DNA of 54,987 bases, from contig CADCHO010000017.1 of assembly GCA_902801255.1 (NCBI GenBank), positions 1-54,987 of the forward strand, given 5' to 3'. Positions 11,801 to 27,225 of this stretch are shown piece after piece. Each line of letters starts with the position of its first letter. Position 1 is the stretch's first letter. Under the pieces are notes generated by a model, which was not told where the DNA came from, did no database searches, and saw nothing but the letters and a program-made list of their open reading frames with translations. This stretch comes from an uncultured Eubacteriales bacterium. GTDB taxonomy: Bacteria > Bacillota > Clostridia > Peptostreptococcales > Anaerovoracaceae. The position numbers and the translations under genes are program-made.

Positions 11801-13261
11801 TTACTTTCTGAGCGCCTCTGCCACTGTCTCTATCTCGTCATCCGCTATGGTGCGGACGCAAAGCAGAAGCCTGTCTTCATTTATTCTGGCAATCACCGGT
11901 ATATCTGCCTTGCGGAGTTTTCTCTCCGTTCTGTCCGCCGACTTGTTGCCGACTCTGACGGATACGGCCCAGCCCGGTAACCTGACCATAGGTGCAGAAC
12001 CGCCGCCGATCTGATCCTCAACAGGCACGATCTCCAGTGAGATGGACGGATCCACCCTCTTGATGGCATCGGCGAGGCTCTCAGCCTTTTTCCGCATCTC
12101 CTGATTAGATGCGGATATCATTCTAAGCACCGGTATGTCTCTGAGAGCAGTCTTGCGGTCTCTGTATTTCATCAGCGTCGCCTCAAGAGCTGCAAAGGTC
12201 ATCTTGTCTACCCTCATGGCTCTCGCGAGCGGATGCTTTTTCATTGCCTTGATGTATTTTTTCTTTCCTACGATTATGCCTGCCTGAGGTCCTCCCAGAA
12301 GCTTGTCGCCGCTGAAAAGCATCACATCTATGCCGGTTGCAAGCGATGCCGGGATATTAGGCTCATTGAGCCCGAATTCAGACATGTCGAGCATAAGGCC
12401 GTTGCCCATGTCAAAGATGACAGGAAGGTCGTGTTTTTTACCGATATCCACGAGTTCTTCGAGCGTAGCTTCTTCTGTAAACCCAACTATATCGTAGTTG
12501 GATTTATGCACCTTCATGAGAGCTCCGGTCTCGAAGTGTTTGCCATGGCGCGGATCCGCATCATACCAGTCGCCCTTCTCCAGCATGGCACGCGTCATAA
12601 TGGCATTTTCATAATCTGACGCCTTTGTTTTATTGCTTGTGCCTACTTCCTGAAGGAACGCTCCGGACTGCATCATGATGTCAGGGATCCTGAATGCTCC
12701 GCCGATCTCTACAAGCTCGCCTCTGGAGACCACGATCTCCTTTCCTTTACCAAGAGTAGCAAGCACTATCATAGTGGCGGCAGCATTGTTGTTTACTACC
12801 ATTGCATCTTCAGCTCCGGTTAGCCGGGCAATCAGGTCACCCACCAGATCATGGCGTGAGCCGCGCTTGCCCTTCGGCACGTTGTATTCAAGGTCGGAAT
12901 AGCCCTTTGACACTCTCGCGACATTCTCTACAGCATCCCTGCAAAGAGGCGCCCTTCCGAGATTCGTGTGAAGTATGGTTCCGGTCGCATTTATGAGCGG
13001 ATAAAGATTGAGTTCTTCCTCCCGGAAGATCCTTGCTTCAGCAGCCTCTGCGACAGCTCCGGTTTCAAGTACGGATGCATCGAAGTTCTCTGCCTCTCCA
13101 TCTTTGAGATCCAGAATAGATGCCCTCAGAGCTGCGATAACGGCGCGGACAGCATCCGTTACAAGAAGATCCCCTTTCTCTTCTGACAATACAACAAGAG
13201 ACTCCTGCTTCATCACTTCGTCGATCTTAGGGAGTCCTCTCAATAATTCTTTCTTTGTCAT
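11801..13261 (-). CDS. selA: L-seryl-tRNA(Sec) selenium transferase
   Basis: PLP enzyme that converts Ser-tRNA(Sec) to Sec-tRNA(Sec) using selenophosphate from SelD. The 486-residue protein contains the family's N-terminal NATGTILHTNLGRAPL segment and the PLP-lysine motif SGDKLLGGPQAG. The frame stays open upstream to 13363, but that extension runs through the tRNA-Sec gene; ATG 13261 is chosen, with GGAGG 9 nt upstream. tRNA-Sec lies only 25 nt upstream and selB 2 nt downstream, forming selC-selA-selB. Confidence 0.97.
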   Translation of the reverse strand: MTKKELLRGLPKIDEVMKQESLVVLSEEKGDLLVTDAVRAVIAALRASILDLKDGEAENFDASVLETGAVAEAAEARIFREEELNLYPLINATGTILHTNLGRAPLCRDAVENVARVSKGYSDLEYNVPKGKRGSRHDLVGDLIARLTGAEDAMVVNNNAAATMIVLATLGKGKEIVVSRGELVEIGGAFRIPDIMMQSGAFLQEVGTSNKTKASDYENAIMTRAMLEKGDWYDADPRHGKHFETGALMKVHKSNYDIVGFTEEATLEELVDIGKKHDLPVIFDMGNGLMLDMSEFGLNEPNIPASLATGIDVMLFSGDKLLGGPQAGIIVGKKKYIKAMKKHPLARAMRVDKMTFAALEATLMKYRDRKTALRDIPVLRMISASNQEMRKKAESLADAIKRVDPSISLEIVPVEDQIGGGSAPMVRLPGWAVSVRVGNKSADRTERKLRKADIPVIARINEDRLLLCVRTIADDEIETVAEALRK

Positions 13262-13285
13262 GGCATCCGACCTCCGTAATCTATT

Positions 13286-13383
13286 TGGCGGGAGTACGTG
13301 GGAATCGAACCCACCCGGGAGGCTACTAACCCCCTGCAAACGGTTTTGAAGACCGCGAGGCACACCAGCACCTATCTACCCCC
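13286..13383 (-). tRNA. selC: tRNA-Sec (anticodon TCA)
   Basis: Read on the minus strand it folds as a selenocysteine tRNA: 5' GGGGGTAG, a 6-bp D stem (AGGTGC/GTGCCT) closed by a four-base loop, anticodon loop CTTCAAA with TCA, a long variable arm (GGGGG/CCTCC), a T arm GTGGG-TTCGATT-CCCAC and an encoded CCA (13288-13286). The acceptor 3' strand is GTACTCCC, giving seven pairs and a G-G apposition at the expected eighth pair. Position directly before selA and selB confirms it. The length of 98 nt with CCA is typical. Confidence 0.95.
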
Positions 13384-18175: not shown

Positions 18176-18685
18176 TCAAACTTCTTCCTCTCTGATTTGT
18201 TCCTTTAAAGTTATTACCGACCAGGCTTTGATCAGTTTTTCCAGCGTCCACTGTGCATTCGCCGGACTTGTCGACGGCAGGCATATTGCCTCACGGCCGG
18301 TCTGCGGCTCAATATATTTGCAGTATAGCTCATGAGATTTGCGCCCGTTGCAGCAGATCCGTTCTATATTGCAGTTATCCAGTATTATGCTTATGTCATT
18401 GGCGCGGGCATTTTTTATGCTTGCGTCAGAGGAGCCTGTGATCTCACAGCTTGCGATCGAATCCCACAGCGCTAAGCCATTGTTAAGTATGAGCTGCTTT
18501 TTCTCTTCTATGCTCTGAGGAACGGGCTGCCCGAATACGGCTGCTACGACCTTCCAGAATCTGTTCTGCGGATGACCATAAAAAAAATGCTGTTCCCTCG
18601 ATTTAACAGATGGAAACGAACCGAGTATCAGGACCCGGCTTCTATTGTTGTACAATGGTCCGAATGGATGCTGTAAGCTGCTCAT
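18176..18685 (-). CDS. DNA-deoxyinosine glycosylase (hypoxanthine/uracil-DNA glycosylase superfamily)
   Basis: A 169-residue protein of the uracil-DNA glycosylase superfamily, closest to the hypoxanthine-DNA glycosylase group that removes deaminated adenine. Markers are VLILGSFPSVKSREQ near the start, FFYGHPQNRFWKV, ALWDSIASCEITGSSD and the C-terminal LPSTSPANAQW motif. It would act on DNA in base-excision repair. It is the first gene before larE; upstream is a 7-bp-armed inverted repeat and then the opposite-facing structured-RNA unit. Confidence 0.88.
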   Translation of the reverse strand: MSSLQHPFGPLYNNRSRVLILGSFPSVKSREQHFFYGHPQNRFWKVVAAVFGQPVPQSIEEKKQLILNNGLALWDSIASCEITGSSDASIKNARANDISIILDNCNIERICCNGRKSHELYCKYIEPQTGREAICLPSTSPANAQWTLEKLIKAWSVITLKEQIREEEV

Positions 18686-18719
18686 ATAACACCTGCCTCA
18701 CAAGTACTGTAACGCACAT

Positions 18720-18741
18720 ATGATACCATAAATAGTATCAT
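18720..18741. promoter_or_regulatory. Operator-like inverted repeat ATGATAC-N8-GTATCAT
   Basis: Perfect 7-bp arms separated by 8 nt, 35 nt upstream of the glycosylase start and about 100 nt upstream of the divergent RNA promoter. The spacing and symmetry fit a dimeric repressor site; no regulator is known from this window. Confidence 0.4.
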
Positions 18742-18844
18742 TTTGTTCACAACAGCATACAAAACGCTCGATTATTGTTAACCTACACAAAAAATCAAGA
18801 GTTTTTTTGTATTCTTTTAATACATTAAGTTTTTCCAAAAAGTA

Positions 18845-18872
18845 TTGCATTTTGTTTTTATATCAGTACAAT
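18845..18872 (+). promoter_or_regulatory. Predicted promoter of the 18.88-19.23 kb RNA
   Basis: Plus strand: -35 TTGCAT (18845-18850), 16-nt spacer, -10 TACAAT (18867-18872), preceded by A/T-rich DNA with A- and T-runs. The predicted start is near 18879. Confidence 0.6.
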
Positions 18873-18984
18873 AAAGACAACAAGAGAGAAAAAGAGCCGG
18901 ACGGAAGTAAAAAGAAAACGAAGTCAAAGAAGTGATCCGGCAAAAGAAAAGCGCGCAGCGCGCAGAATATAGGAGGACAGACCA

Positions 18985-19020
18985 ATGGGAGCATTTGAGA
19001 AAGGGGCTGTTCCGCTATAG
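18985..19020 (+). CDS. Possible 11-residue peptide inside the structured RNA
   Basis: ATG 18985 is preceded by AGGAGG with an 8-nt spacing, the best ribosome-binding site in the neighbourhood, and encodes MGAFEKGAVPL then TAG. The last five codons overlap the 5' strand of the 11-bp long-range helix (19005-19015), so translation would open that helix. It may be a leader peptide, or the purine run may be only part of the RNA fold. Confidence 0.4.
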   Translation: MGAFEKGAVPL

Positions 19021-19197
19021 AGACACTGCAAGGCAGGCCGACTTACAGGCAACCCGGAGGTGACGAATAACGGGACACCAAATCATTATCAGCAGATGTG
19101 ATCGCGGGGCAGCCTGGAAAACCAACTTAAAGAAATCTTTCGAAGCTGTATTGAAGATATGTACAGCGGAGACACAACAGAATATATGATGTTTCGA

Positions 19198-19230
19198 GGG
19201 ACGGGTAAAATCCGTCCCCTTATTGTTGTT
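19198..19230 (+). terminator. Terminator of the structured RNA
   Basis: GGGACGG (19198-19204), 7-nt loop, CCGTCCC (19212-19218), then CTTATTGTTGTT on the plus strand. Confidence 0.75.
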
Positions 19231-19241
19231 CCAAAAGCAAT

Positions 19242-19265
19242 GCCCCGCTGCCTTTGCAGCGGGGC
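19242..19265 (-). terminator. Terminator of hom-lysC-asd (possibly two-way)
   Basis: GCCCCGCTGC-CTTT-GCAGCGGGGC, a 10-bp stem, 31 nt after the asd stop. The T-run is modest on both sides (ATTGCTTTTGG on the minus strand). Confidence 0.7.
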
Positions 19266-19296
19266 TGTTTAATGCATTTCCTGTTCAATCACAAGT

Positions 19297-20334
19297 TTAT
19301 TCTTCGATGAGGAGCTCTGCGATCTGTACTGCGTTTGTTGCAGCGCCTTTGCGCACCTGGTCACCGCAGCACCAGAGGTTGATGCCGTTCTCGTTAACGA
19401 GGTCGCGGCGGATCCTGCCGACATAGACTATATCCTGGTTGGATGTCAGGATCGGCATCGGATAGATCTTCTCGGACGGCTCATCATACAGTCTGCATCC
19501 CGGAGCCTGCTTAATGGCAGCTCTTACTTCAGAAAGATCAAGCTTCTTTTCCGTGATAACATCTATCGATACGGCATGTGATCTTTCTACAGGAACTCTT
19601 ACGCATGTGCAGCTGACCTTGAGATCAGGCAGGTGCATGATCTTGCGTCCCTCGTTCTGCAGTTTCATCTCTTCGGATGAGTACAGATTCTCGCCGAATC
19701 CGCCAATCTGAGGGATAACGTTGTATGCGATCTGGTACTGGAATACCTTCGGCTCAATGTCTGCTCCGTATGAGTTGCCTTCGCCGCCTGCTGCCCTTGC
19801 CTTCAGAACAGCTTCGGACTGATCGTACATCTCTACAGGACCTGCAGCACCTGCACCGCTTGTAGCCTGATACGACGAAGCATAAATGCCTTCGATCTTT
19901 GACAGCTTGTTGATCGCGTTGATCGCAACCAGCGAGATGATAGTTGTGCAGTTTGGATTACTTATGATTCCATTGTTCCATTCAACATCTTCAGGGTTGA
20001 TCTCCGGAACCACCAGAGGAACGTCATCATACAGTCTGAATGCTGATGAATTGTCAACGAATACCGCTCCGGCCGCCTTGATGTGAGGAGCCATTGCTTC
20101 TGCTATATCATTTTCAGATGCACCAAGCACGATGTCGAGTCCATCGAAAGCAGTCTCACATGTCCTCTTGATAGTGATATCACCAAAAGGTGTGCTGAGG
20201 ACCTTGCCTTCAGATCTTTCACTTGCCAGACATCTGAGCTCGCCTACAGGGAAGTTTCTCTCTGCGAGGACCTTGATCATCTGCTGTCCGACTGCTCCGG
20301 TTGCACCCATTACTCCAACGTTGTACTTCTTCAT
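19297..20334 (-). CDS. asd: Aspartate-semialdehyde dehydrogenase
   Basis: Reduces aspartyl phosphate to aspartate semialdehyde, the branch point to threonine, methionine and lysine/diaminopimelate. The 345-residue protein has the NADP-binding GATGAVGQQM start, the catalytic Cys in SNPNCTTI, and the C-terminal substrate His region RVPVERSHAVSI. GGAAGGG precedes the ATG. It is the third gene of hom-lysC-asd, 42 nt after lysC. Confidence 0.96.
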   Translation of the reverse strand: MKKYNVGVMGATGAVGQQMIKVLAERNFPVGELRCLASERSEGKVLSTPFGDITIKRTCETAFDGLDIVLGASENDIAEAMAPHIKAAGAVFVDNSSAFRLYDDVPLVVPEINPEDVEWNNGIISNPNCTTIISLVAINAINKLSKIEGIYASSYQATSGAGAAGPVEMYDQSEAVLKARAAGGEGNSYGADIEPKVFQYQIAYNVIPQIGGFGENLYSSEEMKLQNEGRKIMHLPDLKVSCTCVRVPVERSHAVSIDVITEKKLDLSEVRAAIKQAPGCRLYDEPSEKIYPMPILTSNQDIVYVGRIRRDLVNENGINLWCCGDQVRKGAATNAVQIAELLIEE

Positions 20335-26061: not shown

Positions 26062-27225
26062 TCAGTCGTGTATTTCTACGCAATACCTGCTGTTTCCCGG
26101 CTTGAAGCATCCGATTACTGCAGTTTCGCAGCCTTTCTCGCCCAGTTGTTCTGTAAGCCTCGGGATCTCACTTTCCTTTACGGCAATCAGGAGGCCTCCT
26201 GATGACTGTGGATCGTAAAGACAGTCTATGCGAGCCCTGAGATCCGGATCCCGGTCCGGATCCCTTGAAAGGAACTCCATGACATCAGGTCTTACATACT
26301 CCATATTACGGTATGCCCCCGCAGGGATGATCCCCATCGATGCTATCTCGAGCGCCCTTGGGAATATCGGTACCTTGTGGCTGTACAGCTCAAGAGTAAC
26401 GCCCCCTGCCCTTGCCATCTCGGCAGCATGTCCCATGAGACCGAATCCGGTTATGTCGGTACATCCGTCTACCTTGACTCCCTGCATCGCTTCCCAGGCA
26501 TATTTGTTGAGGAAAGCCATTGTGGCTTCGACTTCTGCGTTCTCCTCTTCAGTGAGCAGATCCACCTTTGCAGCTGTAGTCAATACGCCCGTTCCTATCT
26601 TCTTTGTAATAACCAGAAGATCTCCGGCGCTCGCGCTGTTGCTGAGTATATCGTTCGGATGAGCAAAACCAGTCACGGAAAGACCGTACTTCGGCTCCTT
26701 GTCATCTATGCTGTGTCCTCCGACGATCGTAGCTCCTGCTTCACAGACTTTGTCGTTTCCTCCTTCAAGAATGCCTTTGACCGCATCGAGAGGAAGCTTT
26801 CCGTTCGGGAATGTCAGGAGGTTCATCGCAAGTTTAGGCTGCCCTCCCATCGCATAGACATCGCTCAGGGCGTTCGCAGCAGCTATCTGCCCGAACATGT
26901 AAGGATCATTTACTATAGGCGGGAAGAAATCCACGGTATTTATGATCGCGATATCGTCGGTAAGCTTATAGACACATGCGTCATCACTGCTTTCAAAACC
27001 GACGAGTATACGCGGGTCACTTATTTTCGGCAGACCCGCCAAAAGACTTGATAGGACTCCCGGCCCTATTTTGGCGCCTCAACCACCGGCAGTAGTCATC
27101 TGCGTCAGAAGGACCTTGCCTGTATGGTCAACAAAATCAGGAGCCTTCGGCTTAGGAGGCTCTATATGACAAGCAAGTTTCTCTTTTGCTTCCTGTAAAG
27201 TTTTATCGTCTATCTCTTTACCCAT
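26062..27225 (-). CDS. selD: Selenophosphate synthetase SelD, itself a selenoprotein (Sec49 at TGA)
   Basis: Makes selenophosphate from selenide and ATP for SelA. The frame is continuous from ATG 27225 to the stop at 26062 except for one in-frame TGA at 27081-27079. Around it the protein reads LLTQMTTAGG-U-GAKIGPG, matching the catalytic Cys/Sec loop of SelD, so TGA codes for Sec49 (387 residues in all). Downstream, FESSDDACVY and VGGHSIDDKEPKYGLSVTG are family motifs. A bacterial SECIS-like hairpin follows at once. About 35 extra N-terminal residues precede the usual start; ATG 27243 is an alternative start with a slightly better (AAGAAG) ribosome-binding site. Read without recoding, the gene looks falsely truncated to 326 residues. 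Confidence 0.95.
27037..27078 (-). promoter_or_regulatory. Bacterial SECIS-like hairpin in selD
   Basis: Directly after the TGA on the minus strand: outer 8-bp stem CGCCAAAA (27076-27069) with TTTTGGCG (27044-27037), inner stem ATAGG (27069-27065) with CCTAT (27055-27051), and a G-rich apical loop with CCGGGAG about 18-24 nt from the UGA. Position and two-part shape fit SelB recognition in bacteria; the inner and outer stems share one A, so one pair would open. Confidence 0.75.

Follow-up and report, generated by a model that had tools for sequence, protein, structure and literature searches.

A structured RNA found in most genomes of a gut-bacterial genus joins a ribosome-binding site and a minimal reading frame to a long-range helix

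A structured RNA of about 350 nt, encoded on the plus strand of a 54,987-nt stretch of DNA from an uncultured Eubacteriales bacterium (the window), very probably represents a real class that is not yet listed; it is common in one gut-bacterial genus, absent from Rfam, and couples a ribosome-binding site and a minimal reading frame to a long-range helix. As for its role, we tentatively propose, at somewhat less than an even chance for the proposal as a whole, a new class of dual-function RNA in which a minute mRNA would capture or sense ribosomes; comparison of relatives supports the structure well, and the function is inferred from sequence.

Regarding the locus (Table 1), the stretch 18879-19230 lies between two minus-strand genes, each assigned by an NCBIfam equivalog model above its cut-off: a DNA-deoxyinosine glycosylase on the left (18176-18685) and an aspartate-semialdehyde dehydrogenase (asd) on the right (19297-20334). 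Most relatives come from draft MAGs; their length was estimated at roughly 250-700 nt, and 12 of them (L002-L013) had 74-91% identity to the window RNA across about 385-430 nt by blastn. The promoter and the terminator put forward in an earlier note on this DNA were both found in place: direct reading gave the two promoter hexamers, a pair absent from the list of a mechanical promoter scan and with a -35 element matching at only three of six positions, and the terminator hairpin was followed by CTTATTGTTG. A simple promoter pattern of the TTGCAT-16-TACAAT form occurred 5' of the core in 40 of the 41 rows compared, window included, a count that has no chance control; the row missed was L049, and in L010 a neighbouring hexamer was caught instead. 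At the terminator position, L020, L021 and L043 had other terminator-like hairpins by eye.

Table 1. Predicted features of the RNA locus, in window coordinates
Feature	Position	Strand	Remarks
Promoter TTGCAT-16-TACAAT	18845..18872	+	read from sequence; TTGCAT 18845-18850, TACAAT 18867-18872, spacer 16
Whole RNA	18879..19229	+	putative start about 7 nt past the -10 element; putative end within the U-rich tail
5' closing helix	18896..18941	+	GCCGGA 18896-18901 with UCCGGC 18936-18941
Hairpin GCGCG-CAG-CGCGC	18951..18963	+	both sides changed in 5/5 pairs, 40 rows
GGAGG-ACA-GACC-A, Shine-Dalgarno and conserved GACC motif	18972..18984	+	GGAGG 18972-18976
Tiny ORF MGAFEKGAVPL, then stop	18985..19020	+	AUG 18985, ten further codons, UAG 19018-19020
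Long-range helix, 5' strand GGCUGUUCCGC	19005..19015	+	inside last codons of the tiny ORF
Hairpin GCC/GGC	19037..19050	+	GCC 19037-19039, GGC 19048-19050; 3' of CACUGCAAGGC motif
Pseudoknot	19053..19079	+	CCCG 19053-19056/CGGG 19071-19074 interleaved with GGUG 19059-19062/CACC 19076-19079
Long-range helix, 3' strand GCGGGGCAGCC	19104..19114	+	pairs with 19005-19015
3' hairpin GCUGUA/UACAGC	19145..19167	+	by eye from rows
ACAACNGAAUA motif ahead of terminator	19174..19184	+	with variations in most rows shown (by eye)
Intrinsic terminator GGGACGG...CCGUCCC and U-rich tail	19198..19228	+	hairpin 19198-19218, then CTTATTGTTG

The gene for asd, homoserine dehydrogenase or purine-nucleoside phosphorylase adjoined the RNA, in either orientation, in 32 of the 41 rows (with a flank of up to about 1.5 kb in most of them), and none of the three was beside it in G005 nor, by eye, in G034 and G095. 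Between clades, the RNA gene was inverted relative to asd (L001 vs L016, L048, L088 and L089), though the same genes stayed adjacent, and relative to purine-nucleoside phosphorylase (L022 vs L088). A cis-acting role, as leader or attenuator of an adjacent gene, would account for the frequent presence of aspartate-pathway genes, and a tiny ORF with a terminator recalls leader-peptide attenuators; however, the asd of the window is on the opposite strand and faces the RNA, which excludes this role for that gene, the RNA occurs in either orientation to asd, and it has a predicted promoter and terminator of its own. The varied orientation and the absence of the usual neighbours from some genomes make a cis-leader role unlikely, and we regard it as very improbable. 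The promoter pattern, the terminators and the differing contexts and orientations point instead to a separate gene. Elsewhere in the window, 11801-13383 and 26062-27042 hold the selenocysteine genes selA, selD and tRNA-Sec.

As for the fold, the stretch 18879-19230 had a folding energy of -98.4 kcal/mol. The mean of 100 shuffles was -78.4 (sd 4.67, z -4.28), and none of them did as well. The long-range helix of the earlier note was confirmed as 11 contiguous pairs between GGCUGUUCCGC and GCGGGGCAGCC, two of them G-U, and the covariation check on homologues also went in its favour. In alignment A2 (40 rows, 39 distinct), which was fitted to the structure and so leans towards it, 89.4% of cells paired, 15 of 23 pairs had changes on both sides, and both strands of the long helix changed together; the covariation score, from a test other than R-scape, was 0.244 vs 0.131 in shuffles, above 500 of 500 of them, and slid partners reached at most 0.052. 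Alignment A1 (23 rows, MAFFT) was made without structure and scored with helices drawn by eye from its rows: 14 of 27 pairs were changed on both sides (shuffled mean 6.3, 0/500 as high), and further pair types were no more than chance (131/500). RNAalifold gave a much weaker consensus on this plain alignment than the A2 score, with 15 pairs, four of them changed on both sides, and a covariation term of -0.5, a result that we attribute to misaligned divergent rows.

A duplex test between the 3' half of the ORF and the downstream region was applied to the 41 rows, two of which were too short; in 37 of the 39 tested, the duplex beat at least 192 of 200 shuffles. The duplex of L017 was weak (10/200 shuffles as good), and in L021 the test did not recover the helix (110/200). 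Examples from relatives are GGUUAUCCUGGUAU/AUAUCAGGAUAACC (L020) and GGUUAUCUCGAUA/UAUCGGGAUAACC (L047).

Among the other elements, the pseudoknot of the window member is of the H type, as the earlier note had it, but its geometry, with a loop 2 of 8 nt and a loop 3 of 1 nt, departs from the textbook form ascribed to it, which occurs in the tandem relatives described below. In A1, both sides were changed in 4/4 and 2/4 pairs of its two stems, with 77.5% and 68.5% of cells paired; the window-type pseudoknot is thus supported in the close group, and by eye several divergent clades lack it, L020, L022 and L043-L048 having different pairings at its site. The 5' closing helix reads GCCGGA/UCCGGC in short members; long ones have GCCGAC/GUCGGC, both strands being changed between clades. 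It was not seen in L014, L015, L017, L021, L024, L038 and L044. The hairpin at 19037..19050 had 98.1% of cells paired and one of three pairs changed on both sides in A2, and the 3' hairpin was GCCGUA/UACGGC in L010, L011, L013 and L042 by eye.

Long members carry 276-434 nt of 5' sequence that contains AAGUAC repeats, with 2-7 copies vs shuffle means of 0.2-0.4 in nine of ten members tested; the pattern AGUA-C/G-N3..7-GGAA had 1-3 copies vs about 0.1 in shuffles, again in 9/10. AAGUAC/GGAAGAAG repeats were seen 5' of the core in L020, L022, L043, L045, L047, L048, L069, L088 and L089, with AAGUAC at about 5-30 times the shuffled mean, and L041, also long, had no enrichment. They resemble what we take to be the sarcin-ricin motif AGUA/GAA, a reading that was considered and found too loose to claim.

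The earlier note had found no named class, and cmscan against Rfam bore this out, with no family at gathering score at the RNA locus; within 18700-19320, at E up to 10, there were only ten Rfam matches, all far below gathering score. In L117, three sub-gathering Rfam matches all lay away from its RNA-like unit. The fallback identity offered in that note, raiA RNA (RF03072), had to be abandoned: it gave no match at the locus up to E 10, and the same genome has a separate raiA gene above cut-off (G000:C20:33397-33559). The raiA RNA of the host genus is about 160 nt long, vs about 200-218 nt where genomes from other families of the order had raiA. No match to RNase P RNA (RF00010/RF00011) was found at the RNA locus; the host genome had two sub-cut-off pieces of class A at the edge of contig C16 (best E 9.8e-11) and none of class B. 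Similarly, tmRNA (RF00023) had no match at the locus and ARAGORN found none in the window; 33 of 47 genus genomes had it above cut-off, always on a contig different from that of the RNA where both were found, and the host genome had only sub-cut-off matches. Rfam searches for 6S and SRP RNA gave nothing at the locus (E up to 10), and CsrA (PF02599) was found in 0/47 genus genomes and in 3/14 of the control rings, which removes a Csr/Rsm sponge from consideration. A divergent member of one of these families, or a CsrB-type sponge, would fit the 350-nt size, the tmRNA-like pairing of pseudoknot and tiny ORF and the many GGA motifs; against it stand the raiA and partial RNase P RNA elsewhere in the same genome, the tmRNA on other contigs in those 33 genomes (the host genome not among them), the missing CsrA, and the cmscan of the RNA for Rfam families, 6S and SRP included. 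We consider this most improbable.

Regarding distribution, blastn found the RNA in 22 of 36 same-genus genomes, host included, among 60 genomes searched; a match in another family (G039, L023) extended over 41 bases (E 6e-4) and was set aside. R1, a covariance model for the core of 165 positions, matched in 38 of 47 host-genus genomes, and in 36 after rejection of G005:C3 and G019:C176 (L091, L092), which, like the second G006 match, C57 (L090), were by eye coding or unrelated. In an even draw from the order, R1 matched in 32 of 393 genomes: 23 of the genus, one being the rejected G005, and nine weak others, eight of which (L050-L057) were judged by eye coding or unrelated; G320 and the second G136 match were left out of this reading. 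In L053 and L057, codons resembling the GACCAAUGGGANNAUUUGAG of the RNA gave weak covariance-model matches, presumably the phosphoglycerate kinase motif GPMGVFE. A second model (R2), built from 40 rows and therefore matching in the genus partly by construction, found 39 of 349 family genomes, 36 of the 47 in the genus and three outside. G095, which is 99% complete, of another genus and not among the sequences used for R2, reads as a relative (E 2.3e-5); the matches in G289 and G340 fall in the same places as L057 and L050, already judged coding.

On our reading, the core is absent from 11 of the 47 genus genomes, some of them at least 90% complete (G252, G408, G020 and also G005, which has just a divergent unit). 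Its absence from near-complete genomes indicates that the RNA is not essential to the lineage. Two genomes carry two diverged copies each (G008: C5, C63; G373: C3, C76). One exact core pattern occurred in 18 stretches of named records, MAGs labelled Mogibacterium sp. or Clostridiales bacterium, and several of the 18 record titles name sheep or goat gut. A mobile origin was rejected, with no viral-contig match to two exact RNA patterns and no blastn match among the plasmids and phages searched.

The earlier reading stands for the structured RNA, promoter, long helix, pseudoknot and terminator; it had missed the 5' closing helix, the tandem relatives and the conserved ribosome-binding site with its tiny ORF, which share the 5' strand of the long helix. 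In the window, the Shine-Dalgarno (SD) sequence has a predicted anti-SD duplex of -11.2 kcal/mol, stronger than seven of the ten gene starts tested there, and the AUG stands 8 nt past GGAGG. An in-frame stop after 10-12 codons was present in 41/41 rows (38 distinct loci, 36 genomes), 38 of them by script and three with differing SD letters (L017, L019, L044) by reading; L097, L100 and L104 appear to duplicate L042, L063 and L038. The rows cluster into 16 groups at 85% identity, and each representative has its frame-0 stop at codon 10-12; the chance of a stop within 12 codons in such A-rich RNA is 59%, and the rows are related, their independent events being uncounted. By sequence, all 41 rows thus have the small ORF with a ribosome-binding site that marks dual-function small RNAs.

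The 5' strand of the long helix coincides with the last four to five codons of the ORF, and the stop codon stands just behind it. In a clade that lacks one base ahead of GGCUGUUCC (L017, L018, L019, L042, L044, L093, L097), the shifted frame reads UAA or UAG where other rows have CUAU or GUAU. The peptide varies (MGAFEKGAVPL, MGTFEREVILL, MGIFKKGLFR, MGYSNREVDPA, MQNRFIREGILR), its conservation being limited to an N-terminal MG-x-F-E/K-K/R, with a C-terminal half that tracks the RNA helix. As the peptide is loose while the stop stays in frame, the frame rather than its product appears to be kept. This bears on the view of a conventional small mRNA for a functional peptide of 10-12 amino acids with structured untranslated regions, which the recurring N-terminal pattern would suit, as would the start codons of L014, L015 and L038, only about 35 nt past the putative transcription start, as in an ordinary mRNA; yet the peptides change freely, the C-terminal half goes with the helix, and the frames of divergent relatives give MDR, METFRS or MGKFEG, so that we hold such a product to be improbable.

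Two further observations concern the start site. The pattern GGAGGACRGACCRAUG also opens two long frames, one in the host genome and one in G373 (L072, L075), which we take to be MgtE-like and DtxR-like; patterns of this type had 18 matches, seven within the RNA itself, four others that were read and seven left out. L112 (G408:C37:6518, minus) has a GGAGGACAGACC start and then a frame of 35 codons with many Phe and Gly, with a promoter-like stretch 5' and a hairpin 3' by eye; it may be a small protein that is unrelated. In L001-like members, GGACAG and CUGUUC can form an alternative hairpin that would mask the SD. It is not claimed, the alternative pairing of SD and ORF, on which a switch would rely, being non-significant in most clades (p 0.02-0.54, 15 rows).

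Two genomes, G095 and G034, carry tandem GGAGG-NNN-GACC modules, the outer ones with an AUG and a short frame and the inner ones without. The G095 unit (L122) spans 589 nt from promoter-like start to terminator and has five copies of RGRGG-N2..3-RGACC on one strand; the rest of a 7.5-kb stretch has no further copy, whichever strand is read. An AUG is present in copies 1 and 5, with the frames MGKFEG and MGNVKEGIRK, each closed by a stop, copies 2-4 have no AUG, and the three inner modules have anti-SD energies of -11.6 to -17.7. Its last frame pairs with a downstream strand (7/500 shuffles as good). The G034 unit (L049) is cut short by the end of its contig. Five of its six copies fit the same pattern, and the sixth fits a looser version; an AUG is present in the first copy and in the last, with the frames METFRS and MQNRFIREGILR, again up to a stop, and the four inner modules have anti-SD energies of -9.3 to -11.0. 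Four of the seven inner copies precede short pseudoknots of the H type, two of which, CAGAU-A-GGCUA-AUCUG-AAACA-UAGCC and CAGAC-A-GGCU-G-GUCUG-AAAUAA-AGCC, have different letters in both strands; 2 to 9 of 300 shuffles reach each, on stretches chosen by eye, and of the remaining copies one is marginal (31/300), one at chance (175/300) and one without pseudoknot. Finally, G005 (99% complete) has a short unit, the only relative found there, with the frames MDR, MDR and MNTIRTVY (by eye), each with its stop, and then a terminator-like hairpin; it scored 13.4 bits with R1, and its kinship is unsure. The tandem relatives extend the single-module form to a natural series with one, five and six modules, to which G005 may add a form with three.

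The same modules bear on an untranslated structured RNA, in which GGAGG-NNN-GACC-A-AUGGG would be a protein-binding or tertiary-contact motif and the frame a by-product. GACC is conserved yet not paired with the anti-SD, so GGAGG-NNN-GACC could be such a motif; GACC and AUGGG are conserved beyond the needs of a ribosome-binding site, the inner modules of L122 and L049 keep the motif without AUG, and the AAGUAC excess of the long members points the same way. Translation is favoured by the frame-shifted clade, which again has a stop at the same place, by the outer tandem modules with their AUG and stop, and by the two long frames opened elsewhere (L072, L075); the untranslated RNA is accordingly a serious alternative that we think rather unlikely.

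In the preferred reading, that of a minute mRNA that captures or senses ribosomes, the RNA would be transcribed from its own promoter and GGAGG would recruit a ribosome to the AUG eight bases downstream, where 10-12 codons would be read. The last four to five codons would double as the 5' strand of a long-range helix of 10-15 bp; since the end of the ORF is that strand, a translating ribosome and the closed helix would exclude each other, and occupancy of the site would set the fold of the remaining RNA. The RNA may in this way capture and report free or initiating ribosomes, loading and translation, not the peptide, being what is kept, and 30S subunits may also bind the modules without AUG. 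If ribosomes do set the fold, the cell would encode an RNA for sensing or storing ribosomes, a task that, to our knowledge, is otherwise held by proteins and small molecules. A further version, which we judge unlikely, is a polyvalent ribosome trap: tandem modules and compact structure would bind small ribosomal subunits, AUG and minimal frame would be confined to the outer modules, and the RNA would count or store free ribosomes and refold on loading.

As for known systems, the RNA was not described in the open-licence PMC literature (titles and abstract beginnings). It resembles raiA RNA, which has pseudoknots, as a structured orphan RNA of related genomes. In tmRNA, a short frame of about 10 codons ends in a helix next to pseudoknots; the present RNA may work in a like manner, with a frame of about 10 codons ending in a helix beside pseudoknots, and differs in having an SD and an AUG. 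The dual-function small RNAs SgrS/SgrT, RNAIII and SR1 likewise combine a regulatory RNA and a small ORF, but their peptides are longer and kept as proteins, whereas in the present RNA the main helix takes in part of the frame and the peptide can change freely; homology to them was judged by Rfam only. According to PMC12286853, GOLLD, ROOL and OLE are large bacterial RNAs whose structure is complex and whose function is poorly understood; phages and prophages encode GOLLD and ROOL, and the ROOL studied there came from cow rumen. In contrast with GOLLD and ROOL, the present RNA had no match to the viral contigs, phages and plasmids searched, and none in Rfam. Finally, whereas most members have 10-12 codons and neither drop-off nor toxicity is claimed for them, minimal frames behind an SD, such as MDR in G005, recall the lambda bar minigenes named in reference titles of PMC8012679.
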